Part shown: positions 19,207 to 32,748 of the stretch, in pieces
How the letters are laid out: each line of letters begins with the position of its first letter
Position numbering within the stretch: position 1 is the first letter of the stretch
Assembly: GCA_005879805.1 (NCBI GenBank)
Contig: VBKL01000065.1
Location: 1-64,000 of the forward strand
Origin: Deltaproteobacteria bacterium
Lineage (GTDB): Bacteria > Myxococcota > Myxococcia > Myxococcales > 40CM-4-68-19
Direction: 5' to 3'
Length of the DNA: 64,000 bases
Made by a program: the position numbers and the translations under genes
Notes under the pieces: generated by a model
Database searches by the model: none
What the model saw: only the letters and a program-made list of their open reading frames with translations
Told to the model about the DNA's origin: nothing

Positions 19207-20061
19207 TTACGCGCAAAAATCGGCGATCGCTCGCAGCGCGTCCGGGTGCGCCACGACGCCGTAGTGGTTGGCGTCGACCTCGACTGCCTGCGCCGAAGGC
19301 ACCGCGGCGAGGAATGCGTCGCGCAGCGCGGCTCCGACGATGAAACCGGTGCCCGGCAACAGGGGGCGTGCTGCTCGCACGAGCAGCACCGGCATGCGGA
19401 GCCATTTCCAGAAATGGCCGGCGTCGTGGGTGCTTCCATAGACCGCGTCCTCGAGCACCGCCTCCTTGGAGGTCCTGGAACGTACCCCGCCCGGGACCTC
19501 TTCTAGATCGTAGAGATAAGCGGGTCCCCACACCTCCCACGGGACCGCCGCGCCGATCTTGCGGATGGTTTCGCAATACACCTCGGCGCTGGGAAAGACG
19601 GCTCCCAGCCGCTCGACGGCCGCGCGGATGGGCGGGATGGCCGCCGCCTCCGGCACCCCGACGCCGTCGATGAGGACCAGGCGGCGGATGCGGCCGGCAT
19701 CGATCGCTGCGACTTCCATAGAGACGAAGGCGCCCATGGAATGCCCGACCAGGTCGAAGGACTCGAACCCGAGGAGGCGCGCCGCCGCGAGGACGTCCTC
19801 TGCGTGGCGCCGCCAGCCGTACGTGCCGGGAGCGGTCGGCGGGCTGAAGCCCCGGCCCCGCAAGTCCAGGGCGACGACGGGACGGCCCCGCGCTACCAGC
19901 GTGCGCGCGACGGAGTCGAAGCTGCGCGCGTTGGCGGAGAGGCCGGGTACGCAAAGCACGGGAACGCCCGTCCCGGCCCCATGGCGGAGAGCCCGCATCG
20001 TGCCGGAGGGAAGCTGCAAGTCGAGGGAGTCGGCCATCTGGTGTTGCGATGCAACATCCAT
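19207..20061 (-). CDS. Alpha/beta hydrolase
   Basis: VLCVPGLSANARSFDSVARTL...VALDLRGRGFS...LVGHSMGAFVSMEVA...NHYGVVAHPDAL. Confidence 0.85.
   Translation of the reverse strand: MDVASQHQMADSLDLQLPSGTMRALRHGAGTGVPVLCVPGLSANARSFDSVARTLVARGRPVVALDLRGRGFSPPTAPGTYGWRRHAEDVLAAARLLGFESFDLVGHSMGAFVSMEVAAIDAGRIRRLVLIDGVGVPEAAAIPPIRAAVERLGAVFPSAEVYCETIRKIGAAVPWEVWGPAYLYDLEEVPGGVRSRTSKEAVLEDAVYGSTHDAGHFWKWLRMPVLLVRAARPLLPGTGFIVGAALRDAFLAAVPSAQAVEVDANHYGVVAHPDALRAIADFCA
20042..20056. promoter_or_regulatory. Putative PhaR operator, TGTTGC-N3-GCAACA inverted repeat upstream of phaR
   Basis: TGTTGCGATGCAACA, perfect 6-bp arms, 27 bp upstream of the phaR start codon. Confidence 0.6.
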
Positions 20062-20082
20062 GATAGTGCCCGCGGAGGAAAC

Positions 20083-20562
20083 GTGCTCATCAAGAAGTAT
20101 GGCAACCGCCGTCTCTACGATACCGTCCAGAGCCGATACATCACGCTCGAGGAGTTGGGCGGGCTCATCCGGGACGGCCAGGACGTGCGCGTCGCCGACG
20201 CCAGGACCGGCGAGGACCTGACCACCGCCACCCTGGCCCAGATCATCATCGAGGGACGCGGTGCGGCGCGCCTGCTGCCCGTTCCGCTCCTCGTGCAACT
20301 CATCCGCATGGGAGACGATGCGCTGGCGGAATTCCTCGGCCAGTACGTGACCTGGGCGCTGGAAGTGTACCTGCAGGCCCGGCAAGGATTGCAGACCATG
20401 GCTCCGTTCAATCCGCTGCTCGCTTTCGCTCCGGGCGGTCTTTCGCGTGCGTTCGGGACGGGCGCGCCGCCGCCCCGGCCGGCGCCGCCTTCCGACGAGG
20501 TTGCCGAGTTGCGTCGCGAGATCGAGGACCTGAAGAAAACCGTGAAGAAACGCCGCCGTTGA
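20083..20562 (+). CDS. phaR: Polyhydroxyalkanoate synthesis regulator PhaR
   Basis: VLIKKYGNRRLYDTVQSRYITLEELGGLIRDGQDVRVADARTGEDLT (PHA/PHB accumulation DNA-binding domain). GTG start with GGAGGAA ribosome-binding site. Confidence 0.9.
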   Translation: MLIKKYGNRRLYDTVQSRYITLEELGGLIRDGQDVRVADARTGEDLTTATLAQIIIEGRGAARLLPVPLLVQLIRMGDDALAEFLGQYVTWALEVYLQARQGLQTMAPFNPLLAFAPGGLSRAFGTGAPPPRPAPPSDEVAELRREIEDLKKTVKKRRR

Positions 20563-20622
20563 TGGTGCATCGCAACATCCATCTTGACAGCACGTCGGGC
20601 CGCGTTATGTTGCGCTGCACAA
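20563..20622 (+). promoter_or_regulatory. Phasin promoter region: two PhaR-like sites plus TTGACA-N16-TATGTT
   Basis: TGGTGCATCGCAACA (20563-20577), TTGACA (20584-20589), TATGTT (20606-20611), TGTTGCGCTGCACAA (20608-20622). Confidence 0.55.
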
Positions 20623-20670
20623 GAGAAACCGGCGGTGCGCAGGGCCCCGCCGAAAACCAAGGAGCAGACC

Positions 20671-20937
20671 ATGGCGGAGTTCAAGGCGCAGGTGGAGCAG
20701 GCGGCGAATTCGTTCGAGAAGGCGGTCTCGGAGCAGACCACCAGGTTCGAGGCGGCGGTCTCGGAATGGACCAAGCTGCAGAGCAAGGGGTTCGCGCAGG
20801 CGAACGCGATCTTCGAGGACTTCGCCCGCGTGGCCCGCGAGCAGATCGCTTTCGCCGATCAGCTGGGCGGCGAGTGGCGCAAGGTCGTTCTCGCCTCGGC
20901 GAAGAGCGCCAGCGAAGTTCTTGCGCCAAAGGCGTAG
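20671..20937 (+). CDS. phaP: Phasin family protein
   Basis: MAEFKAQVEQAANSFEKAVSEQTTRFEAAVSEWTKLQSKGFAQANAIFEDFARVAREQIAFADQLGGEWRK, in PHA cluster; GGAG ribosome-binding site. Confidence 0.75.
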   Translation: MAEFKAQVEQAANSFEKAVSEQTTRFEAAVSEWTKLQSKGFAQANAIFEDFARVAREQIAFADQLGGEWRKVVLASAKSASEVLAPKA

Positions 20938-20950
20938 AGTGACCTTTCCT

Positions 20951-20976
20951 GGCCAGGCGGCGGTGGCTGCCTGGCC
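20951..20976 (+). terminator. Hairpin between phasin and phaB (possible attenuator or RNA-processing site)
   Basis: GGCCAGGC-N10-GCCTGGCC perfect 8-bp stem; no U-tract. Confidence 0.35.
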
Positions 20977-21054
20977 TGCAGGTCCCTGGCTCGCTTACTG
21001 CATCGGGCCTCCACGGGCGCCATCGCCCATTACCCGATCGCAGGAGGGGTTCCC

Positions 21055-21801
21055 TTGGCTGCAAAGCTGGAAGGAAGAGTCGCGCTCGTCACGGGCGCGT
21101 CGCGAGGACTGGGACGTGCCATCGCGCTGAAGCTCGCGGAGGAAGGCGCTCGGGTCGCGCTCAACTACCGCAGCGGTGAGCTCGAAGCGCGACAGGTCGC
21201 GGACGAGATCATCGCGCGAGGCGGGACGACCTTCCTCCTCCGCGGGGACGTGAGCGTGAAGGAGGAAGCGCGCGCCCTCGTCGCCAAGACCATCGAGCAC
21301 TGGGGACGTCTCGACATCCTCGTCAACAACGCCGGGATCACCCGCGACAAATCGCTCAAGAAGCTCACCGACGACGACTGGACCGAGGTCATCGCCGTCA
21401 ACCTGAACAGCGTGTACTACTGCACGAGCGCGGCGATGAAGGCGATGTCCGATCAGAAGTTCGGGCGCATCGTCAACATCAGCTCGTTCGTCGGCCAGGC
21501 GGGGAACTTCGGCCAGACCAACTACTCGGCCTCGAAGGGCGGCATCATCGCCTTCACCAAGAGCGCCGCCATCGAGCTCGCCAAGTTCAACATCACCGTC
21601 AACGCCATCGCTCCGGGCTTCACCGAGACCGACATGCTCGCCAAGGTCGCCGAGCCGGTCAGGCAGCAGATCCTGGCGAAGATCCCGATGGGCAGATTCG
21701 GCAAGCCGGAAGAGATCGCGAAGGCCGTGGCGTTCCTCTGCACCGACGGCGACTACATCACCGGCCAGCAGATCAACGTCAACGGCGGCGTCTACATGTG
21801 A
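21055..21801 (+). CDS. phaB: Acetoacetyl-CoA/3-oxoacyl reductase, PhaB/FabG-like SDR
   Basis: VALVTGASRGLGRAIALKLAEEG...NNAGITRD...YSASKGGIIAFTKSAAIELA; PHA gene context. Confidence 0.85.
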   Translation: MAAKLEGRVALVTGASRGLGRAIALKLAEEGARVALNYRSGELEARQVADEIIARGGTTFLLRGDVSVKEEARALVAKTIEHWGRLDILVNNAGITRDKSLKKLTDDDWTEVIAVNLNSVYYCTSAAMKAMSDQKFGRIVNISSFVGQAGNFGQTNYSASKGGIIAFTKSAAIELAKFNITVNAIAPGFTETDMLAKVAEPVRQQILAKIPMGRFGKPEEIAKAVAFLCTDGDYITGQQINVNGGVYM

Positions 21802-22199
21802 AAGAGGGAACCGTGCCCTTTGCATTCGATTTGATGGGAAAGTTGCGCAAGGCCCGCGACCAGGGAATGGAGTCGTGGGCCAAAACAGCCATCCAGCTCA
21901 CCAGCTCGGAGCCGTACGCGAGAGCGAACTACCTGCTCTCGCAGCCCTGGCTCATCGCCGCAGGCATCTTCCGCAAGTCGCGCGAGAAGGCGATGTCGCA
22001 GGTGCTCGCCCAGCTCAACATGCCTTCCCGTGAGGAGGTGCTGGGGCTCTCCCAGCGCCTCACCCACATCGAGATGGTGCTCGACGATCTGGGCGCGGCG
22101 ATCGAGGCGGCGCGGTCCGCACCCGCCGAGCCCGAAGCTCCCCGCGCGGCGCAGGGGAACGGTGCACGCGTCCGCCCGCTCGCGGCCGGAGAGGGATGA
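21798..22199 (+). CDS. PhaE-like/PHA synthase-associated protein
   Basis: Helical protein ending LNMPSREEVLGLSQRLTHIEMVLDDLGAAIE, similar to PhaE C-termini, directly before phaC. Confidence 0.55.
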   Translation: MKEGTVPFAFDLMGKLRKARDQGMESWAKTAIQLTSSEPYARANYLLSQPWLIAAGIFRKSREKAMSQVLAQLNMPSREEVLGLSQRLTHIEMVLDDLGAAIEAARSAPAEPEAPRAAQGNGARVRPLAAGEG

Positions 22200-22201
22200 G
22201 C

Positions 22202-23075
22202 ATGGCCGGACCCCAGGGAGTCTCCGGCGGCTTCGCTGACGCCTTCGAGCGGCTTTCCCTCGCCGCCCGCAACGCGCTCAAGGTCAGCACCACCCGGGCG
22301 ACGATCGGGAACACCCGGACCGGAGGACAGCGATCTCGGGCTCGAAGATTACGTGCTCGAGTACCTGCCCCGCGCGCTCCGGAAGGTGAAGGCGGTCTCG
22401 GGATCGAGCTCCTTCACCGTCCTCGGATGGTGCATCGGCGCCATCCTCTCGACGCTCTACGCCGCGCTCCGGCCGGACGACGGGATCGAAAACCTCATCC
22501 TCCTCACCGCGCCGCTCGACTTCGCCAACAAGGAAGCGATCAAGCTCTCCCGCATGACCGCGGAGCGCAATTTCGACGTCGATCGCATGCTCGACGCCCA
22601 CGGAAACATGCCGGCCGAGTTGCTCGACTACGGCGCGAAGATGCTCAAGCCGGTGGAGAACTTCATCGGCAGCTACGTGCGGCTCTTCGACAACCTCCAC
22701 GATCCGAAGGTCGTCGATTCCTGGCACGCCATGAACACCTGGGTGTCGGACGGCATCCCGATGGCGGCCCGGACGTACCGCCAGCTGGTGGTCGAGTTCT
22801 ACCGCGAGAACCGGCTGATGAACGGCACCCTGTCGCTGCGGGGCGAGAAGGTGGATCTCGGCCGGCTGCGCGCGAACCTGCTCGACGTCATCGCGGAGGA
22901 CGACCACATCACGCCGCCTTGCCAGTCGGAGACGGTGGTCGAGAAGGTGGGCAGCGCCGACAAGACGTTGCTGCGGGTTCCCGGCGGCCACATCGGAATG
23001 ATGGTGGGCGGCGCGGCCGCCCGGTCGACGTGGCCGAAGATCGAAGGCTGGCTTTCGGCGCGATCGAAGGGGTAG
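22202..23075 (+). pseudogene. phaC: Class III-like PHA synthase PhaC with apparent internal deletion and frame change
   Basis: N-terminal stub MAGPQGVSGGFADAFERLSLAARNALKVSTTRATIGNT joins directly, out of frame, to (P)GPEDSDLGLEDYVLEYLPRALRKV...GWCIGA...EDDHITPP...GGHIGMMVG, where Cys, Asp and His motifs are present. Confidence 0.75.
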
Positions 23076-23080
23076 TGCGT

Positions 23081-24295
23081 TCAGGAGCCGCGAATGAAGC
23101 TGGCGATGCGGGGAGCGATCTCCTCTCGCCAGCGCCTTCCGCTGAAGACTCCGTAGTGGCCCGCGCCGGACTGCACGTACTCTTGCCGGCGTCCCGCGGG
23201 GATCGACGTGCAGAGATCGTGCGCCGCAAAGGTCTGGCCGGCCCCGGTGATGTCGTCCTTCTCGCCCTCGATGGTGAACAGCGCCGTCGCCTCGATGGCC
23301 GTGGGGCGGACCGGCCGCTTTCCGCGCCAGACCATCTCGCCGCGCGCCAGATCGTGGCGCTGGAAGACGCTGGCGATGGTCTGCAGGTAGTACTCGGCGG
23401 GCAGGTCCATCACCGCCAGGTAGTCGTCGTAGAAGCGCCGCACGACCTCCGCGCTCTCTTCGTCGCCCGCGAGGAGGTCGCGGTACAGGCGGCGGTGGGC
23501 ATCGGCGTGGCGGCCGACGTTGAGCGAGACGAACGCGGTGAGTTGCAAGAAACCCGGATAGACCTTGCGCAAGAAGCCCGGCTCGCCGGCCGGGACGCGC
23601 TGGATGGCCGTCATCTCGAACCAGCGCAACGAGCGGGTGGTCGCGACGCGGTCGACCTGCGTCGGGTTCTTGCGCGCGTCGATGGGCCCGGCCATGAGCG
23701 TCATGCTCCGCGGCGTCGCGGGATCCCGATCCTCGGCGAGGAGCGAGACGGCCGCGAGGACCGGAACGCTCGGCTGGCACACCGCGATGACATGCACGTC
23801 GGGTCCCAGGGCCTGCAGGAACCGCCGCACGAGATCGACGTAGTCGTCCAGATCGAACCGGCCCGCCGAGAGCGGGACGAGGCGGGCATCGATCCAGTCG
23901 GTGAGGTAGAGGTCGTGATCGGGCAGGAGCCGCTGGACGGTGTCGCGCAAGAGCGATGCGTGGTGGCCCGAGAGCGGAGCGACCACCAGCACCTTCGGGT
24001 CGCGGCGGCGCGCGTCGCGCTCGAAGTGGACCAGATTGCAGAACGGCGTGCCCAGGCAGACCACTTCCCGCACCGCGACGGTACGGCCGTCGATCCCGGT
24101 CGTCTCGAGCCCGAAGGGCGGCTTCGCGTAGCTGCGCGTCGCCCTCTCGAGAAGCTCGCTCGCCGACGCGACCGACCGGCCGAAAAGCGTTCCCGCTCCG
24201 GGGAAGGCGGGGTGCGACCAGAGGGCCTGCACCGCCGAGGCCCACGAGTTGACCGGAGCAACCATCGCGCGGCCGAGGCTGTAGGAACCGTACAT
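23081..24295 (-). CDS. phaZ: Intracellular polyhydroxyalkanoate depolymerase
   Basis: PKVLVVAPLSGHHASLLRDTVQRLLPDHDLYLTDWIDARLVPLSAGRFDLDDYVDLVRRF...CQPSVPVLAAVSLLAE; C-terminal SGAGHYGVFSGRRWREEI. Confidence 0.9.
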   Translation of the reverse strand: MYGSYSLGRAMVAPVNSWASAVQALWSHPAFPGAGTLFGRSVASASELLERATRSYAKPPFGLETTGIDGRTVAVREVVCLGTPFCNLVHFERDARRRDPKVLVVAPLSGHHASLLRDTVQRLLPDHDLYLTDWIDARLVPLSAGRFDLDDYVDLVRRFLQALGPDVHVIAVCQPSVPVLAAVSLLAEDRDPATPRSMTLMAGPIDARKNPTQVDRVATTRSLRWFEMTAIQRVPAGEPGFLRKVYPGFLQLTAFVSLNVGRHADAHRRLYRDLLAGDEESAEVVRRFYDDYLAVMDLPAEYYLQTIASVFQRHDLARGEMVWRGKRPVRPTAIEATALFTIEGEKDDITGAGQTFAAHDLCTSIPAGRRQEYVQSGAGHYGVFSGRRWREEIAPRIASFIRGS

Positions 24296-24414
24296 GGCGA
24301 AACCCTAGCCCAGAACTGCGCGCGCCGGGCATTCGTCGCGCAAGACTGTCGGGTGGCCGCCGTCTTGCTTGGTTTGCGTCGAGGTCGCCTGTCCAAATCG
24401 CGAAGGATTTGCCG

Positions 24415-26364
24415 ATGAAGCCGTTCGTGCTGAACCGTCAGGGACGTCTCGTCTTTCCCTCGAACTTCTTCCCCGAGCTCGATTTCAGCGTCTTCGACAC
24501 ACTCGAGCAGTTCGAGTCGGTGATCGAGCGCGACTTCGAGACCAAGGCTCCGACGGGGTCGGACATCCTCAAACGTGTGCAGTCGGCGGCGTATCCGACC
24601 CGCCTGGAGCTCTTGCGCGATCTGGCCCTCAATCTCCTCTGGGTGAATCGCTACGCGATCACCATGTACGTGAAGCGGCCGGCGCGCTGGCAGGACGTCC
24701 CGCGCACGCGCGACGACGTCTTCCTGCCGGTGCTCACTCCCTGGGAGGAGGGCGAGAAGAAGGTGGCCGCGGTGGAGAGCGCCTACCGCTCGCTGCCGGC
24801 GCGCTGGGACGCGAGTCTCGAGGACGCCATCTTCGACGCGCTCTTCGGGCTCTTCCGCCACCGGCGCCACCAGGCGACCGACCTCCCGGCGATCCCACCC
24901 ACGGTGAAGGAGGCGCTGAGCGATCCGTCGAACCGCACCTATCACCTGCGCCAGCACGATCCGGATTACCCGGTCCATTCGACGCAGGCGATCCTCGATT
25001 GCGAAGGCCCGGTGCCCGAGCTGGAGGCACTCAGCCGGTGGGCGATGGTGCTGCAGAACCAGCATCCCTGGGAGCGGGCGCAGTCCCGCCTCGCGCCGCT
25101 CTCGGAGCTGCGCGGCGACGACTTCGTCATCCTCTACCGGCCTCGCTCGCCCGAAGTGATGGGCTTCATCGAGCGGGTGCGGGCGGGCCGCCCGCGACCT
25201 GCGCCGCGCCCCGCGAGGCCTGCCAGCCCGCCAGTGAAACCGTACCCGCCGCTCCAGGTGGCGAAGCGCTTCGCCGTGCAGCCGCGCATCGAGGCGCTCG
25301 CGGCGGTGAACGGCGAGCACGAGTGCACCAACGAGGACCTCATCCGGAACACCGCCTTCAACTGGTCGCCCATGTCGGCCGAGGAGATCCGCGAGAAGAC
25401 CGGGATCGAGTCGCGCCGGTACACCGAGCGATCGCTGGAGGAGATCTCGCTCGAGGCGGCGGAGATCGCGCTCGCGAAGTCGGGCCGCAAGCCGGAGGAG
25501 ATCGGGGCAGTCCTCTTCTGCTCCTGCACCAGCACGCGCCTCATCCCCTCGGTCGCGACCTGGATCTCCGGCCAGCTCGGCATGCTGCAGACCCATGCCT
25601 CCTGCGACATCGTCGCTGCCTGCGCGGGCCTGCCCTACGGACTCTCGGAGGCCGTGCGCCTGCTCCAGGAAGTCGAGAGGCCCGTGCTGCTCGTCTGCGC
25701 GGAGAAGTTCTCCGACAAGATCGGGACGGTGCGCACCTCGCGCATGATCTTCGGCGACGGCGCGGCCGCGCTGGTCGTCGGCCCGGCGCCCCTCGGAACG
25801 CAAACCGACGTCGAGGTCCTGCAGACGTACGCGAGCGGGCCGGTGAGCGAGGTGAACTCGATCATCTGGCCGAACCCCGAGTTCGACAACAACATCACCG
25901 TCTTCGGCCCCGAGGTGAAATCGCTCGCCCAGAGGTACCTGAAGCAGATGATCGGAGAGCTCTCCGAGCTCCCGGGTCCGGACGGGACGGGAAGGCTCCT
26001 CGACGCCGTCGACCTGGTCGTGCCGCACCAGGCAAACAAGACGATGGTGAGCAAGATGGCCGCCGCCGTCGGTCTCGCGCAGGACCGGCTCTACTTCAAC
26101 ATCGAGCGGGTGGGTAACGCCTCCTCGGCGAGCATCCCGCTGGCGATTCGCGACGCCGTTCGCGACGGCGTCATCGACCGCCCGATGCTGATCTTCGCCC
26201 CCGGTTTTGGCGCTGGCGCCGTCGGCGGGTACGCGGTGCTGCGGATCGATCCGGCGATCGTGGCGCTGGAGCAGCCTCTTGCGGCTCGAGCGCCGGCCGC
26301 AGCCGCTGTGGAGCGGCCCGTCACCACTTCCTCGGAGGACGTGCGCAAAGCCTTCGGCGACTGA
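24415..26364 (+). CDS. Beta-ketoacyl-ACP synthase III (FabH/NphT7-like) with about 250-aa N-terminal extension of unknown function
   Basis: C-terminal KASIII with complete Cys-His-Asn triad: SCDIVAACAGLPYGL, VVPHQANKTM, ERVGNASSASIPLAI. N-terminal domain not recognised. Confidence 0.85.
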   Translation: MKPFVLNRQGRLVFPSNFFPELDFSVFDTLEQFESVIERDFETKAPTGSDILKRVQSAAYPTRLELLRDLALNLLWVNRYAITMYVKRPARWQDVPRTRDDVFLPVLTPWEEGEKKVAAVESAYRSLPARWDASLEDAIFDALFGLFRHRRHQATDLPAIPPTVKEALSDPSNRTYHLRQHDPDYPVHSTQAILDCEGPVPELEALSRWAMVLQNQHPWERAQSRLAPLSELRGDDFVILYRPRSPEVMGFIERVRAGRPRPAPRPARPASPPVKPYPPLQVAKRFAVQPRIEALAAVNGEHECTNEDLIRNTAFNWSPMSAEEIREKTGIESRRYTERSLEEISLEAAEIALAKSGRKPEEIGAVLFCSCTSTRLIPSVATWISGQLGMLQTHASCDIVAACAGLPYGLSEAVRLLQEVERPVLLVCAEKFSDKIGTVRTSRMIFGDGAAALVVGPAPLGTQTDVEVLQTYASGPVSEVNSIIWPNPEFDNNITVFGPEVKSLAQRYLKQMIGELSELPGPDGTGRLLDAVDLVVPHQANKTMVSKMAAAVGLAQDRLYFNIERVGNASSASIPLAIRDAVRDGVIDRPMLIFAPGFGAGAVGGYAVLRIDPAIVALEQPLAARAPAAAAVERPVTTSSEDVRKAFGD

Positions 26365-26458
26365 CGGGCGGGAAGGCCCGCAGGATTTGCACCGGCCCGG
26401 AGCGAAGCACCGCGAAACGGACGGCACCGGCGATGCAAGGTGGGCATCGGGAGGAGCG

Positions 26459-26704
26459 ATGACCATGCGGACTGAGACGATGACATGGGCGGGGCCGTTG
26501 CCGGACGAGATGGATCCGACCGCCGAGGCGATGTGGGAGGGGCCGATGACCTTCGCCGGCCACTGGGCCGCAAAGAGCGCCGCCGCATCCCCGCCGTCGA
26601 ACGGGATCGATCCCATCGTCTGGGCCGGCCCGCTGCCCGCCGAGGCGCCGGTCCAGTCCTTGTTTCTCGAGAAACGCCGGCAGTTCACAGCGGCGGCACG
26701 CTGA
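26459..26704 (+). CDS. 81-aa small protein with three W-x-G-P repeats, function unknown
   Basis: MTMRTETMTWAGPLPDEMDPTAEAMWEGPMTFAGHWAAKSAAASPPSNGIDPIVWAGPLPAEAPVQSLFLEKRRQFTAAAR; GGGAGGAG ribosome-binding site, same strand between KASIII and carboxylase. Confidence 0.65.
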   Translation: MTMRTETMTWAGPLPDEMDPTAEAMWEGPMTFAGHWAAKSAAASPPSNGIDPIVWAGPLPAEAPVQSLFLEKRRQFTAAAR

Positions 26705-26737
26705 GCGAGGATGCTCGGCGCCAGCCGGGGAGGCGCC

Positions 26738-28915
26738 ATGGCGCATCCGATCGTGGGGCTCGGTCGCGTCGGAGTAGTGCAGGGCGAGGAAGCAGCTCGC
26801 GCCGCACGGATTGTTCGCGAGATCGCTCGAGCGGGGCAGGCGACCGTCGCGGTGCCGATCCGTCTCCAGCCTGGAGAGCCGGTCGAGAATGCCCTTCGCG
26901 AGGCGAAGGTCGACAGCGCCTGGCTCGGGCCCGCGCCGTTGCGCGACCGCGCTGCGTTCGCCCGGGCCTGCATCAGGGCGGGAGCGACGCACGTCGGGCC
27001 GCCCGCCGACGTACTCGCGCAGCTTTCCGATCGAGAAGGGATCGCGCGGCTCGCGGCGCAGATCGGGGCACCGCTCGCGGTCGAGAGCCATTCCCGCGCC
27101 CGTCTCTTCGAGATCGTCGTCGCGCGCGACCATCGCGGCAGCCTTCGCGCGCTGGGCGTCGGCGATGCCTCGTTACGATTCGATGGGCGCGCGGTGCTCG
27201 TCGAGTCGCCACCCGCGCTCCTCACCGAGAACGAGCGCAGGGAGGCTCGAGATCTCGCTGCCCGCGCGTGCGAAGCGACGGGCTGGACGGGAATCTGCGC
27301 GGTGCGGCTTCTCCTCTTCCCCGCCGGGTCCACGTCGCGCTGGTCGCTTGCCGGCCTCGATTGCTTCGCCGACGCGGCGCCCGCCATCGAAGCGGTCGCG
27401 AGCGTCGATTTCGTCCGACTGGCGTTCCAGATCGCAGCCGGGGTTCCGCTCGGCGACCGCTCGCCGGTCGAGCAGGGCCATGCGTTCGCGGCCCGCATCA
27501 TCGCTCGCGATCCCGAGTCGGAAGCCATTGCCCGGCCTGGTCCCGTCGAAGTCCTCGCGATGCCGTCGGGCCCTGGGCTGCGGGCGGACGTCGAAGTCCG
27601 GCATGGCCAGAGTCCCGAGGGACCAGGGAGCGTGCTCGTCACGCTCGTGAGCCATGGCGCCGGCAGGGAAGAGGCGTCGCAGCGGTTGCAAGAGGCGCTC
27701 GCCGAAGGCGATCTGCTCCTGCGCGGCAGCGGCACCTCGAAAGCATGGCTCCGCGCGCTCGCCGGCCGGCCGGAAATCGCCGCCGGCGAGACGTCGATCG
27801 GCCTCCTCGATCGGCTCGCCTCGTCGGGAAAGCTGGTCGAGCCTCGTCGTGAGGCGGCGCTGCTGGCCGCGGCCATCGAGGCGTACCACGCCGAGGAGGA
27901 TCTGGAGCGGGCCCGCTTCCTCGCCGAGGCCAGGCGCGGCAGACCGCGCGTCGGTCCCTCTTCCGGCCGCGCCGTGGAGCTGACCTGTCTCGGACGCCGG
28001 TATCGGCTGGAAGTGCGCCAGCTGGGTCCGAACGAGTACCGCGTCGAGAGCGGGCTCGAGGCCCCGGCGGCCGTGCGGCTGGAGCGGCTCGGCCGCTTCG
28101 AGCAGCGGCTCGAGTGGCAAGGCCTTCTGCATCGGGTCTTCCTCTCGACGGACGGGCTCCGTCAACTCGTCCAGGTGGACGACGTCGCGCATCTCGTCTC
28201 CCGCGAGCCGGCCGGGATCGTGGCGGCGCCGATGCCCGCGGTGGTAGCGGCGATCCAGGTGGAGGTCGGACAGCAGGTGGCGCCCGGCGATCCGCTGGTG
28301 CGCATCGAGTCGATGAAGGTGCAGGTGGAGGTGACCGCCCCGGCTGCCGGGACGGTGCGCGAGATCCTGGTGGCGGGCGCGCGGGCTCGCGGTGCGCTGG
28401 CGCGAGCTCTCCGCCGCTGCTCCGCGCGACGATGCCGGAGTCCTCCGAGCCGAGAACGCCGCGCTCTGCGCGTTCGTGGATCTCCAGTCGCTCTTCAGCC
28501 GCAAGGCGCCCCTCGAGGGCGGCGCGGCGCCGCCCCTCGAAGAGCTCTGGCGCTACCTGCACGAGCCGGAAGCCCGCGGCGCGGGGCTTTCCCCGGCGTT
28601 CGTCGCGCTGCTGCGCCCGGCGCTCGCGCAGTACCGCGTCTCGATGGATGCGCCGGGCCGCGATCTGGAACTGGCCCTCCTCCGCATCCAGAAATCCCGG
28701 GAGCGGGTGGGCGAGCAGCCGGGACCCATCGCGTCGATCCTCGAGCGCTGGCTCGCCTCGGACGATCCGCTGCCCGCCGAAGGCGGGACTTCGCGAGAGA
28801 CGCTCGACAGGCTGGTCGACCTCGGACACGAGCGCTTCCCGGCAGTCGCCGATCTCGCCCGCGAAGCGCGGTACCGGAATTTCGACAAGCCGGCGCTGGA
28901 CCGGGTGCGCGCTGA
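26738..28915 (+). CDS. Fused acyl-CoA carboxylase-like protein, part 1: degenerate biotin carboxylase plus biotinyl domain
   Basis: BC-like segments (ATHVGPPADVLAQLSDREGIARLAAQIGAPL; GHAFAARIIARDPES; SGPGLRADVEVRHGQ) without the ATP-grasp Gly-rich loop; biotinyl motif VRIESMKVQVEVTAPAAG. Homology changes frame near 28,385. Confidence 0.7.
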   Translation: MAHPIVGLGRVGVVQGEEAARAARIVREIARAGQATVAVPIRLQPGEPVENALREAKVDSAWLGPAPLRDRAAFARACIRAGATHVGPPADVLAQLSDREGIARLAAQIGAPLAVESHSRARLFEIVVARDHRGSLRALGVGDASLRFDGRAVLVESPPALLTENERREARDLAARACEATGWTGICAVRLLLFPAGSTSRWSLAGLDCFADAAPAIEAVASVDFVRLAFQIAAGVPLGDRSPVEQGHAFAARIIARDPESEAIARPGPVEVLAMPSGPGLRADVEVRHGQSPEGPGSVLVTLVSHGAGREEASQRLQEALAEGDLLLRGSGTSKAWLRALAGRPEIAAGETSIGLLDRLASSGKLVEPRREAALLAAAIEAYHAEEDLERARFLAEARRGRPRVGPSSGRAVELTCLGRRYRLEVRQLGPNEYRVESGLEAPAAVRLERLGRFEQRLEWQGLLHRVFLSTDGLRQLVQVDDVAHLVSREPAGIVAAPMPAVVAAIQVEVGQQVAPGDPLVRIESMKVQVEVTAPAAGTVREILVAGARARGALARALRRCSARRCRSPPSRERRALRVRGSPVALQPQGAPRGRRGAAPRRALALPARAGSPRRGAFPGVRRAAAPGARAVPRLDGCAGPRSGTGPPPHPEIPGAGGRAAGTHRVDPRALARLGRSAARRRRDFARDARQAGRPRTRALPGSRRSRPRSAVPEFRQAGAGPGAR

Positions 28916-29717
28916 AACGTTGGAGCGGGCGCAGAGCGATCTCGCGCGCCTTCCCGATTCCTCCGGCGACGAGCGGGAGGCGATCCTCGACCGGCTGGTC
29001 GCCTGCACGCAGCCGATTTCGACGACGCTCATCTCGCATATCGCCGCAACGGAATCGCCGGCGCTCCGGGCCCGGCTCGTGGAAACGCTGGTCCGCCGCT
29101 ATTACCGGTTCCGGGCGCTCGAACGGGTGGCCTCCTCCGACGTCGAGGGCATCCCGTGCGCGTGGGTGGATTACGAGCTTCGCGGCGTCCGTTACCGGCT
29201 CTTCGCCTGCTCGGCTCCGGCCGCCGGCGTCTCGGAGGGTGCGCGCAAGCTTGCGCGGCTCGCGAGCGACGTGCCCCAGGAGCGCGAGATCCTGCTCGAC
29301 CTGTACCTCGGAGAGCAGGGTCCGCGGAGCCCGCCCGACCAGGTCGCCGATTCGCTGCGGGACGTCTTGCTGAAGACGTCGTTCGCCCGTCCGCCGCGAC
29401 GGATCTCGATGGTGGTGGCAGGCGGCCTGCGCGAAGGCCGCAGGCAGTCTCCGCAGCAGAGGTCCGCGATCTCACGCCGGTCCGCGATGCGGCCGGCCAC
29501 GTCATCGAGCTTCCCGAACTGGAGCGCATCCTCCACGAGGCGCTCGGAGGGATGCGGGTCCACCAGGCGCAGCGGGCGCCGCACGAGCGGATGGAATGGA
29601 ATCGCGTGCAGCTCACGCTCACGCCGCCCCTCGATCTGCCGCGCGAGGAGGTCGAGCGCATCGCCGCCCGGCTCGCTCCGGCCACCGAGGGCCTGGGGCT
29701 GGAGATGGTCTCCTTGA
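28392..29717 (+). CDS. Fused carboxylase-like protein, part 2: central region (different frame from parts 1 and 3)
   Basis: VRWRELSAAAPRDDAGVLRAENAALCAFVDLQSLFSRKAPLEGG...RALERVASSDVEGIPCAWVDYELRGVRYRLF; coding-like to about 29,440. Confidence 0.55.
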   Translation: MRWRELSAAAPRDDAGVLRAENAALCAFVDLQSLFSRKAPLEGGAAPPLEELWRYLHEPEARGAGLSPAFVALLRPALAQYRVSMDAPGRDLELALLRIQKSRERVGEQPGPIASILERWLASDDPLPAEGGTSRETLDRLVDLGHERFPAVADLAREARYRNFDKPALDRVRAETLERAQSDLARLPDSSGDEREAILDRLVACTQPISTTLISHIAATESPALRARLVETLVRRYYRFRALERVASSDVEGIPCAWVDYELRGVRYRLFACSAPAAGVSEGARKLARLASDVPQEREILLDLYLGEQGPRSPPDQVADSLRDVLLKTSFARPPRRISMVVAGGLREGRRQSPQQRSAISRRSAMRPATSSSFPNWSASSTRRSEGCGSTRRSGRRTSGWNGIACSSRSRRPSICRARRSSASPPGSLRPPRAWGWRWSP

Positions 29718-31558
29718 CCGCGCGCGTGCCCGATCCCGGGACCGGGCAATTGCGCGAGACACTCTTGCGCGTCGTCGCACCGGGCCAGGGCCTCAGCATC
29801 CGCTGGGACGAGCCCACCGAAGAGCCGCTGCAGCCGATGTCGCAATACCAGCAGAAGGTGGTCCAGCTTCGCCGCCGCGGGCTGGTCCATCCCTTCGAGC
29901 TCGTACGGATGCTGGCGCAGCCGGCCGGAGTCCACGCCGCCGCGCCGCCGGGCGAATTCGTCGAATACGATCTGGACGCCTCGAACGCGCTGGTTCCCGT
30001 GCAGCGGCCGCCCGGAAGCAACACCGCCAACGTGGTGGTCGGCGTGGTGCGCAACTTCACCAGGCGGTACCCGGAAGGCATGGAGCGGGTGGTGCTGCTC
30101 GGCGATCCCGGCCGCGAGATGGGATCGGTCGCCGAGCCCGAATGCCGGCGCATCGCCGCCGCTCTCGATCTGGCGGAGAAGCTCCGGGCCCCGGTGGAAT
30201 GGTTCGAGGTGTGCGCGGGCGCGAAGATCTCGATGACGAGCGGCACCGAGAACATGGACTGGGTCTCGCGCGTCCTGCGCCGGATCATCGAGTTCACCCA
30301 GCGGGGAGGCGAGATCAACGTGGTGGTGCTGGGAATCGCCGTCGGCGCGCAGCCGTACTGGAACGCCGAAGCGACCATGCTCATGCACACCAAGGGGATC
30401 CTGGTGATGGCCCCCGGATCGACCATGGTGCTCACCGGGAAGCAGGCCCTCGAGTATTCCGGGAGCGTCTCCGCCGAGGACAACGAAGGCATCGGCGGCT
30501 ACGACCGCATCATGGGCCCGAACGGCCAGGCGCAGTACCGGGCGGGCAGCGTCTCCGAGGCGCTGCAGATCCTGCTTCGCCATTACGATCACTGCTACGT
30601 CGCGCCGGGGGAACGGTTCCCGCGGCGCGCGGAGACGGCCGATCCGCGCGATCGCGACGTGCGCGACGACCCGCACGGTCCGGAGGGCGGCGCGGGTTTC
30701 GCGACCGTCGGCGAGATCTTCAGCGCCGAGCACAACCCCGATCGCAAGAAGCCGTTCGAGATCCGCAAGGTGATGGGAGCGGCGATCGATCGCGACTTCC
30801 CGCCTCTCGAGCGCTGGCGCGATCTGCGCGGCGGCGAGACGGCGGTGGTCTGGGACGCGCATCTGGGCGGCTGGCCGGTGTGCCTCATCGGCATCCAGTC
30901 CCGGCCGCTGCCGCGGCTGGAGTTCGTGCCCGCCGACGGTCCGGAGCTGTGGTCGGCGGGAACGCTGTTCCCGCAGTCGTCGAAGAAGATCGCTCGCGCG
31001 GTGAACTCCGCGAGCGGCAACCGGCCGCTCGTGATCCTCGCCAATCTTTCCGGCTTCGACGGATCGCCCGAGTCCATGCGGCGCCTGCAACTCGAATACG
31101 GTGCCGAGATCGGGCGCGCCGTGGTCAACTTCCAGGGGCCCATCGCCTTTTGCGTCGTCTCGCGCTACCACGGCGGCGCTTTCGTCGTCTTCGCCCGGAC
31201 GCTGACGGAGAGCATCGAGATCGCGGCCATCGAAGGAGCGCGCGCCTCCGTGATCGGCGGCGCGCCGGCGGCGGCCGTGGTCTTCGCTCGCGAGGTGGAG
31301 ACCCGGACGCGGAAGGATCCCCGCGTCCTCGCAGCGGAGAAGAGCGCTTCGCGGGGACACGCCCGGGGCGTCGCGCAGATGATAGAGGCGGTCCGTTCGG
31401 AAAAACTCGGCGAGGTGGGCGAGGAGTACGATCGGGTCCACTCGGTCGAGCGGGCCCTGAAGGTCGGGTCCCTGGACCAGATCATCGCCCCCCGCGAATT
31501 ACGACCCTACTTGATCGATGTTGTCGAGCGGGGAATCGCGCGATTCACGAAAAACTGA
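29156..31558 (+). CDS. Fused carboxylase-like protein, part 3: carboxyltransferase domain (coding from about 29,440)
   Basis: NVVVLGIAVGAQPYWNAEATMLMHTKGILVMAPGSTMVLTGKQALEYSGSVSAEDNEGIGGYDRIMGPNGQAQYRA, characteristic acyl-CoA carboxyltransferase. Confidence 0.8.
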   Translation: MRVGGLRASRRPLPALRLLGSGRRRLGGCAQACAARERRAPGARDPARPVPRRAGSAEPARPGRRFAAGRLAEDVVRPSAATDLDGGGRRPARRPQAVSAAEVRDLTPVRDAAGHVIELPELERILHEALGGMRVHQAQRAPHERMEWNRVQLTLTPPLDLPREEVERIAARLAPATEGLGLEMVSLTARVPDPGTGQLRETLLRVVAPGQGLSIRWDEPTEEPLQPMSQYQQKVVQLRRRGLVHPFELVRMLAQPAGVHAAAPPGEFVEYDLDASNALVPVQRPPGSNTANVVVGVVRNFTRRYPEGMERVVLLGDPGREMGSVAEPECRRIAAALDLAEKLRAPVEWFEVCAGAKISMTSGTENMDWVSRVLRRIIEFTQRGGEINVVVLGIAVGAQPYWNAEATMLMHTKGILVMAPGSTMVLTGKQALEYSGSVSAEDNEGIGGYDRIMGPNGQAQYRAGSVSEALQILLRHYDHCYVAPGERFPRRAETADPRDRDVRDDPHGPEGGAGFATVGEIFSAEHNPDRKKPFEIRKVMGAAIDRDFPPLERWRDLRGGETAVVWDAHLGGWPVCLIGIQSRPLPRLEFVPADGPELWSAGTLFPQSSKKIARAVNSASGNRPLVILANLSGFDGSPESMRRLQLEYGAEIGRAVVNFQGPIAFCVVSRYHGGAFVVFARTLTESIEIAAIEGARASVIGGAPAAAVVFAREVETRTRKDPRVLAAEKSASRGHARGVAQMIEAVRSEKLGEVGEEYDRVHSVERALKVGSLDQIIAPRELRPYLIDVVERGIARFTKN

Positions 31559-31711
31559 ATAAATTTACGGTCCTACCCGATATCGGCTCGTTTCCTGACC
31601 GGCCGGTATATTTGCGGTGACTCTGCGTATGTTGGTATGAAACTGTAATGGCTCCGACCAATGGCGGGGTCCCGTGAACGCCGTCGGATCGCTCCCGGGG
31701 GGGAGACCAAC

Positions 31712-31903
31712 ATGCTCCGAACCATCGTGCTCGCTTCTGCCTTCGCGTTCCTCATCGCAGTTCCCGCCCTTGCGGACAGAGATGATCACGGCCACGGAGG
31801 CGGTCACCACGACGCGCCCGAGCCCCTGACGATGATCGGCCTCGGCGCGGGCGGTGCCGGCCTGGCCTACGCGAAGTGGAAGAAGAGCCGGGCCAGGCGA
31901 TAA
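31712..31903 (+). CDS. 63-aa PEP-CTERM sorting-signal protein with His/Asp-rich mature segment
   Basis: MLRTIVLASAFAFLIAVPALA|DRDDHGHGGGHHDA|PEP-LTMIGLGAGGAGLAYAKW-KKSRARR: signal peptide, short linker, PEP, TM helix, basic tail. Confidence 0.8.
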   Translation: MLRTIVLASAFAFLIAVPALADRDDHGHGGGHHDAPEPLTMIGLGAGGAGLAYAKWKKSRARR

Positions 31904-31914
31904 GGGCCCCGCAA

Positions 31915-32748
31915 GTGACATCGCGCATCGCAGTGTTCCGCGCCGCGGCGATCGCCGTCGCCGCCATACAGCTTGCGCTCGCTGCACGCTCCGGAGCGGA
32001 AGAGTTCTGGCTCATTTCCTTCCTCGCTTGGGGCGGCGCGCGGCTCGTGGCCCGCGCCGGCGGGGACGAGACGCCTGCCTTCGCGGTTCGGATCGCGGGA
32101 GGCGTCCTGCTCGCGTCGTCGCTCTTCGAGCTGGCGATTGCGCAGCAGTACCAGATGGGTCATCGCCTCGCGCCGCTCGCCGGCGGGCTCGGGCTCCTGC
32201 TCCTCGCCGGGGGCTTCCTATGGGTCCGCGCGAACGGGCGCGCCCTCGTGCTGCTTTGCTTGCCGATGCTGCATCCGCCGCCGGTGGCCGTGCGGGAGCT
32301 CCTCGACACCTCTCGCGCCACGGCGTTCGTGAGCGCCCTGTTCCTGCGCCTGTCCGGCGTGGCGGTCGAGCGGCGCGGGACGCTGCTCGTATTGCCGGAC
32401 TCTTCCTTGAGCGTCGGGGGCGCCTGCTCGGGCATCAACCAGATTTTCCAGCTGCTCGCGCTCGCGGTGCTCGCCGCGATCATCCTCGAGGTGACGCCGC
32501 GGCGCGCGGCGTGGCTCGCAGGGAGCGCCGTCGCTGTGGGCCTTGCCGTAAATGCCCTGCGCATCGCCTTTCTCGCGGTGCTCGCCAATCGGGGGGAGAC
32601 CCGGCTCTTCGACCTGTGGCACCAGGGGCCACCCGCGCTGCTCGTCTCGGCCGCCGCTACCGCCGTGTGGGGCGGGCTCTCGCTGCTCGTCTCCCGGTCC
32701 GGCGGCGGCGCGCCTACCGGGTCAGCCACGAGCGCGACCGCGCCGTGA
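31915..32748 (+). CDS. Exosortase/archaeosortase family protein
   Basis: Polytopic; LSVGGACSGINQIFQLLAL (catalytic Cys), VGLAVNALRIAFLAVLANRG (Arg), LFDLWHQGPPALLVS (His). Confidence 0.85.
   Translation: MTSRIAVFRAAAIAVAAIQLALAARSGAEEFWLISFLAWGGARLVARAGGDETPAFAVRIAGGVLLASSLFELAIAQQYQMGHRLAPLAGGLGLLLLAGGFLWVRANGRALVLLCLPMLHPPPVAVRELLDTSRATAFVSALFLRLSGVAVERRGTLLVLPDSSLSVGGACSGINQIFQLLALAVLAAIILEVTPRRAAWLAGSAVAVGLAVNALRIAFLAVLANRGETRLFDLWHQGPPALLVSAAATAVWGGLSLLVSRSGGGAPTGSATSATAP

Follow-up and report, generated by a model that had tools for sequence, protein, structure and literature searches.

Polyhydroxybutyrate (PHB) synthesis is taught as starting with the reversible thiolase PhaA, and engineers have swapped in NphT7 to drive flux from malonyl-coenzyme A (CoA). 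NphT7 of Streptomyces sp. CL190 is a ketoacyl-acyl carrier protein (ACP) synthase III (KASIII) homologue that retains the Cys-His-Asn residues, is without KASIII activity and without the Arg important for ACP binding, and has an AGGSR motif suggested to serve in CoA recognition (PMC5432608). NphT7 together with PhaB and PhaC yields PHB in engineered Synechocystis (PMC3899235), which shows, by analogy, that the logic of such a pathway works. Among the matches listed for open PMC papers, we saw no account of a KASIII-PhaB-PhaC pathway occurring in nature, with subscription journals and preprints lying outside the search. Here, we describe a polyhydroxyalkanoate (PHA) locus beside genes for a large KASIII protein and a biotin-dependent carboxylase, in a 64,000-nucleotide stretch (the window; contig VBKL01000065.1, assembly GCA_005879805.1) of a Myxococcota genome, and conclude from comparative evidence that this KASIII is probably the dedicated acetoacetyl-CoA synthase of PHB synthesis, feeding PhaB and supplied with malonyl-CoA by the carboxylase. 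An original prediction made from this DNA alone had proposed an NphT7-like KASIII that feeds PhaB; comparison across genomes (linkage, gene fusions, exchange with a thiolase and replacement of the ACP-binding Arg) supports the proposal, with the pathway of this particular window appearing damaged as assembled.

A KASIII family with an additional N-terminal domain

The KASIII gene encodes two domains:

24409..25260, + strand: N-terminal domain, about 285 amino acids, no known family or fold (confident AlphaFold model, predicted local distance difference test score 86.9; null results in database searches)
25261..26364, + strand: ketosynthase domain with C405, H540 and N570 and the C-terminal tail SSEDVRKAFGD (PF08541, E 4e-20; PF08545, E 5e-11; E. 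coli FabH as best fold match)

At 651 amino acids, the protein is double the length of FabH; its reading frame runs from 24409, with a likely ATG at 24415. Its Cys405, His540 and Asn570 are invariant across 29 aligned sequences and lie in a KASIII fold, which places it in the ketosynthase III superfamily and bears out the earlier statement that this triad is intact. The 285-residue N-terminal domain went unmentioned in the original prediction; it has no match in Pfam and PHROGs, and a fold search of the PDB with the confident model gave nothing at E <1. Residues 1-285 contain many positions that are invariant among 26-29 sequences and possibly form a new fold. Curated models describe this 650-residue family only as a weak KASIII match. 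Many unfused KASIII proteins end in a common tail like SSEDVRxAFGE/D, not seen in the matched stretches of PhaB-fused forms, and this tail may serve as a peptide that docks PhaB or the carboxylase. A second piece of a KASIII N-terminus, covering residues 21-68 at 79% identity, lies at a contig end (G000:C207:30-173, locus L121), so that a second KASIII copy may exist in this genome or bin.

FabH is the closest PDB entry in both fold and sequence, the C-terminal half of KASIII being about 30% identical to it. FabH chains have an Arg aligned two residues after the catalytic PHQAN (Arg249 in E. coli), whereas among the 29 KASIII sequences this position holds Thr in 22, Asn, Ser, Pro or Lys in the remainder, and Arg in none. 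Neither this ACP-surface residue nor the model score (TIGR00747, 140.8 bits against a cut-off of 292.1) assigns KASIII to FabH, and its context is that of PHA genes rather than a fab operon. We read the Arg that is missing in NphT7 as the one at the FabH Arg249 position, and on this reading the KASIII family has, like NphT7, kept its triad while losing the ACP-binding Arg. When compared by reported features, the two also share the KASIII fold and the same proposed reaction; KASIII differs from NphT7 in the extra N-terminal domain, the missing AGGSR motif, the linkage to PHA and carboxylase genes, and the fusion to PhaB in Acidobacteria. KASIII probably works like NphT7, with a predicted preference for CoA over ACP substrates, but since one of the two NphT7 sequence features is present and the other is not, we do not file it as an NphT7-type member.

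KASIII is linked to PhaB and carboxylase genes in several phyla

Relatives of KASIII were sought in 85,462 species genomes, and full-length relatives at about 59-67% identity were found in several phyla. The carriers are Geodermatophilus, Blastococcus, Modestobacter, Pseudonocardia, Actinomycetospora, Micrococcaceae, Rokubacteria, Methylomirabilota, Acidobacteria, Dormibacterota and a few Pseudomonadota. Across 80 KASIII loci, PhaB (counted at at least 42% identity within 8.5 kb) lies near KASIII in 51, a carboxylase does so in 47 (the same multidomain type in 37 and separate carboxyltransferase [CT] and biotin carboxyl carrier protein [BCCP] genes in another 10), and a thiolase within the examined flank is found in only 2. 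Conservation of the neighborhood in relatives, a check put forward with the original prediction, was thus found across phyla.

Gene order varies among carriers: Geodermatophilaceae have phaB-carboxylase-KASIII, with the PHA synthase in many cases on the opposite strand a few kilobases further, and many Pseudonocardia have KASIII-carboxylase-phaB. We observe that KASIII and PhaB form one open reading frame (ORF) of about 890-940 residues in 12 Acidobacteria, with one more (L129) coming from the genome search; where the contig is long enough, the fusion stands with phaR, phaP, phaE, phaC and CT/BCCP genes. The PhaB half of one such fusion matches reductase models that include acetoacetyl-CoA reductase. 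Another Acidobacteriota genome (L170) has an unfused KASIII, phaB, phaC and phaE in a row. The proposed order of reactions, from malonyl-CoA to PHB, is the same as that of the Synechocystis pathway, but the latter was assembled by engineers from three organisms, whereas here the genes are linked naturally.

The carboxylases themselves fall into different types. In actinobacterial KASIII loci, the multidomain carboxylase is complete and includes an ACC_central-like segment, while Acidobacteria loci encode a CT similar to methylmalonyl-CoA decarboxylase alpha (TIGR01117, 752 bits, below cut-off) together with a biotin carrier. In two of the latter, L087 and L098, there is in addition a gene for a transcarboxylase 5S-like subunit (NF008984; 762 bits against a cut-off of 827 in L087), which suggests ATP-free formation of malonyl-CoA; a transcarboxylase that shifts a carboxyl group from oxaloacetate onto acetyl-CoA is possible in these loci. 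Beside the KASIII-PhaB fusion (L087, L098, L094, L102, L106, L107 and L129), we also observe, along with CT and biotin carrier, a small protein with a hydrophobic N-terminus.

A thiolase stands in the place of KASIII in related loci

In one sampled Acidobacteria class, three KASIII-negative genomes have a class III PHA synthase that is 72-75% identical to that of KASIII loci. Two of these (L126 and L127) have a thiolase directly beside the same type of PhaB (60-62% identical to the window PhaB) in a phaR/P/E/C locus, and the thiolase tested from this pair is BktB by NCBIfam (NF006552, 645 bits, cut-off 565). The third (L128) has neither KASIII nor thiolase, with a MaoC-type hydratase gene nearby. 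In the PhaB tree, the window, thiolase-linked and KASIII-fused PhaB proteins fall in one clade (support 100/97). The presence of a thiolase beside the same PhaB in KASIII-negative relatives argues that KASIII has taken the thiolase's place in that lineage. The locus type shares PhaB, PhaC/E, PhaR, PhaP and PhaZ, as well as the PhaB lineage, with the classical PhaA/BktB-PhaB-PhaC pathway, and differs from it in that KASIII and carboxylase occupy the thiolase position in the Acidobacteria compared.

A PHA synthase match is present in 47/49 KASIII-bearing genomes. An even sample of one Acidobacteria class contained PHA synthase in 5/151 genomes and KASIII in 2/151, both KASIII genomes (one of them being the sample center) having the synthase. 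In the Acidobacteriota phylum sample, the synthase was found in 31/396 genomes, and KASIII in 3/33 synthase-bearing Acidobacteriota genomes. The flanks of 14 PHA-synthase loci from KASIII genomes (Rokubacteria, Actinobacteria and others) held no thiolase; in 7 of them, from Rokubacteria and Methylomirabilota, PhaB lies near PhaC and KASIII itself is elsewhere in the genome.

Gene content of the window

The window belongs to contig C261 of an evidently metagenome-derived assembly of 5.02 Mb (291 contigs, 87.9% complete). The PHA genes run along the + strand, with phaZ convergent:

20083..20562, + strand: phaR, PHA accumulation regulator (PF07879, PHB_acc_N, E 4e-26; 78% DNA identity to the phaZ-adjacent phaR of a same-family relative)
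20671..20937, + strand: phasin-like ORF (phaP; 60% identity over 81 amino acids to the phaZ-adjacent ORF of relative G010)
21055..21801, + strand: phaB, acetoacetyl-CoA reductase (NF009546 and TIGR01829 among the best models, both just below their cut-offs)
21798..22199, + strand: phaE-like PHA synthase subunit (33-43% identity to Acidobacteria PhaE; weak match to PF09712, PHA_synth_III_E)
22196..23075, + strand: class III phaC, missing about 69 internal residues and changing frame near 22330 (tblastn with intact PhaC)
23081..24295, - strand: phaZ, intracellular PHB depolymerase (PF06850, PHB_depo_C, E 5e-86; 76% identity to phaZ of relative G003)

No Pfam family scored above cut-off for the phasin-like ORF. 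PhaB, PhaC and PhaE occur together, as in class III PHB synthesis loci, and a dedicated ketothiolase PhaA is missing from the locus; the whole contig is without a thiolase, in agreement with the earlier statement that the window has no PhaA. The predicted run phaR-phaP-phaB-phaE-like-phaC with convergent phaZ held for gene identities and order, and needs correcting for phaC, which is incomplete as assembled. The divergent KASIII gene begins 113-119 bp away from the start of phaZ, close to the predicted 120 bp. Same-family relatives L119 (G003) and L120 (G010) keep phaZ with phaR or a phasin and have no KASIII; the phaZ-adjacent PhaB of G010 is of a different kind, at about 40% identity.

KASIII is followed by:

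26459..26704, + strand: small ORF of 81 amino acids, not conserved, no Pfam match
26711..28375, + strand: carboxylase part 1, degenerate biotin carboxylase and biotin carrier with ESMKV (PF02785, PF00364)
28377..29447, + strand: carboxylase part 2, frame-shifted central region (31-34% identity to intact relatives by tblastn)
29447..31558, + strand: carboxylase part 3, CT (PF01039, E 9e-33; 56-59% identity to actinobacterial KASIII-linked carboxylases)

The small ORF between KASIII and the carboxylase is present, as predicted, but relatives of it were sought in 80 KASIII loci and none was found, so it was dropped as a candidate for a conserved partner. It contains three similar W-x-G-P motifs (WAGPLP, WEGPM and WAGPLP). 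The multidomain carboxylase (26711-31558) had been described as having an intact CT, which stands, as does a biotin site.

Thiolases elsewhere in the genome

A genome search for PhaA, another check suggested with the original prediction, gave a divided answer: there is none by the PHA genes, but five Thiolase_C matches lie on other contigs, and the genome is not thiolase-free. By NCBIfam, these are closest to 3-oxoadipyl-CoA thiolase, acetyl-CoA acetyltransferase, a BktB-like thiolase, an acyltransferase fragment and FadI. The acetyl-CoA acetyltransferase-like protein (L002) has PDB entry 4o99, which we take to be PhaA of Ralstonia eutropha, as its closest match. Its gene adjoins not PHA genes but an ORF read by eye as a 3-oxoacid CoA-transferase subunit, a position that suggests a role in ketone-body metabolism. 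One candidate for a thiolase-free PHB genome (G234, with no Thiolase_C domain) was rejected, as a Thiolase_N domain is present.

Origin of the locus

Among 39 relatives up to the order of the window, only FabH-like proteins match KASIII, at about 30% identity, and a search of 195 genomes of the window's phylum found the N-terminal domain in no other genome, save for one marginal match. The KASIII protein tree places the window within a broad group that also takes in Dormibacterota, Actinobacteria and others, with no finer placement. Absence from relatives combined with this broad placement suggests that KASIII was gained horizontally.

Proposed pathway and alternative explanations

In the pathway that we propose, the linked biotin-dependent carboxylase would run in the direction of malonyl-CoA, forming it from acetyl-CoA. 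Cys405 of KASIII would take an acetyl group from acetyl-CoA, and KASIII would condense it with malonyl-CoA, with His540 and Asn570 driving decarboxylation, to give acetoacetyl-CoA and CO2. PhaB would then convert acetoacetyl-CoA to (R)-3-hydroxybutyryl-CoA, which PhaC/PhaE would polymerize. Because CO2 is lost, the KASIII step would be effectively irreversible, unlike that of a thiolase. We give about even chances to a wider proposal, namely a naturally evolved, effectively irreversible PHB pathway that needs no thiolase and has spread horizontally over several phyla, in which a new KASIII family with an uncharacterized N-terminal domain feeds PhaB (in one polypeptide in Acidobacteria) and malonyl-CoA is supplied by a dedicated carboxylase or by an ATP-free oxaloacetate transcarboxylase, the latter in some Acidobacteria.

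Several observations weigh against KASIII as the acetoacetyl-CoA synthase of this locus. Support for the KASIII reaction is comparative, and it is from this that we infer the reaction itself; the AGGSR motif of NphT7 is absent from the alignment of 29 KASIII sequences. No pha or carboxylase neighbor lies in the examined flank of 23/80 KASIII loci, and co-occurrence within Actinobacteria, given here without the base rate of PHA synthase in that group, is weak evidence. Thiolase domains are present in every KASIII genome examined, so the KASIII route may be an additional one. In the wider phylum sample, a nearby thiolase is missing from most other Acidobacteriota PHA loci, with or without KASIII; we therefore rejected absence of a nearby thiolase as a mark of KASIII loci, since on its own it proves little, and regard only comparison inside the closely related locus type as informative. 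In the window itself, the carboxylase is readable only across two frame breaks (near 28376 and 29447), and its biotin-carboxylase part is without the GGGGRG ATP loop and the E-x-N-x-R motif, both kept in actinobacterial relatives, so that the three parts of a working biotin-dependent acetyl-CoA carboxylase (biotin carboxylase, biotin site and CT) are not all intact in this copy. In the phaC gene, residues ~1-33 run directly into ~102-355 in another frame, and an intact PhaC used as tblastn query covers residues 102-355 only (61-64% identity).

KASIII might also feed PhaB and PhaC with other substrates, that is, propionyl- or branched acyl-CoA starters or a methylmalonyl-CoA extender, leading to 3-hydroxyvalerate or a methylated monomer. 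The starter acyl group differs widely among KASIII enzymes, and BktB, the thiolase found in this locus type, belongs to a class known for C5 products; the resemblance of the Acidobacteria CT to methylmalonyl-CoA decarboxylase alpha and the 5S-like subunits of two loci point the same way. We nevertheless hold this to be unlikely, as the actinobacterial carboxylase with its ACC_central-like region is of another type and PhaB fits acetoacetyl-CoA reductase models. A role of KASIII and carboxylase in starting a specialized ACP-based fatty-acid or lipid pathway, with the nearby reductase being FabG and the PHA link incidental, appears very improbable. The PhaB and FabG families are near-identical, the window PhaB also scores above the 3-oxoacyl-ACP reductase cut-off, and the loci without pha or carboxylase neighbors would fit such a role, but no ACP gene was recognized among recurring neighbor clusters, the ACP-binding Arg is replaced, the PhaB fusion lies inside phaR/P/E/C loci, and nearly all KASIII genomes have a PHA synthase.

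Two further doubts concern this genome only and are compatible with KASIII being an acetoacetyl-CoA synthase. That the locus is decaying or mis-assembled here, leaving the pathway idle even if the family has this function elsewhere, is a serious possibility, although we lean against it: both phaC and the carboxylase look broken, and the damaged phaC is the sole PHA synthase match in this genome, whereas KASIII, phaB, phaZ and the CT are well conserved and intact, faulty assembly can produce single-base breaks where DNA is GC-rich, and the degenerate biotin carboxylase remains open over 1.6 kb. On our main reading, this lesioned copy would be active. The KASIII contig could also be misbinned, in which case the absence of KASIII (and of its N-terminal domain in the searched genomes of the phylum) from relatives would reflect binning and not horizontal gain. 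We consider misbinning quite unlikely and horizontal gain of KASIII and carboxylase the better fit, because the GC level is uniform along the window and a same-family relative shows 75-78% DNA identity to the phaR and phaZ of this contig.

If KASIII is indeed an acetoacetyl-CoA synthase, a function could be assigned to a 650-residue family, phaA-less PHA loci in several soil phyla would have an explanation, and ready-made evolved enzymes, including the KASIII-PhaB fusion, would be available for PHB and butanol-type pathways. Named strains of Geodermatophilus and Pseudonocardia carry KASIII, making the idea directly testable.

Directly downstream of the carboxylase, we also observe a gene for a short PEP-CTERM-like protein (31694-31903) adjoining an exosortase gene (31876-32748).

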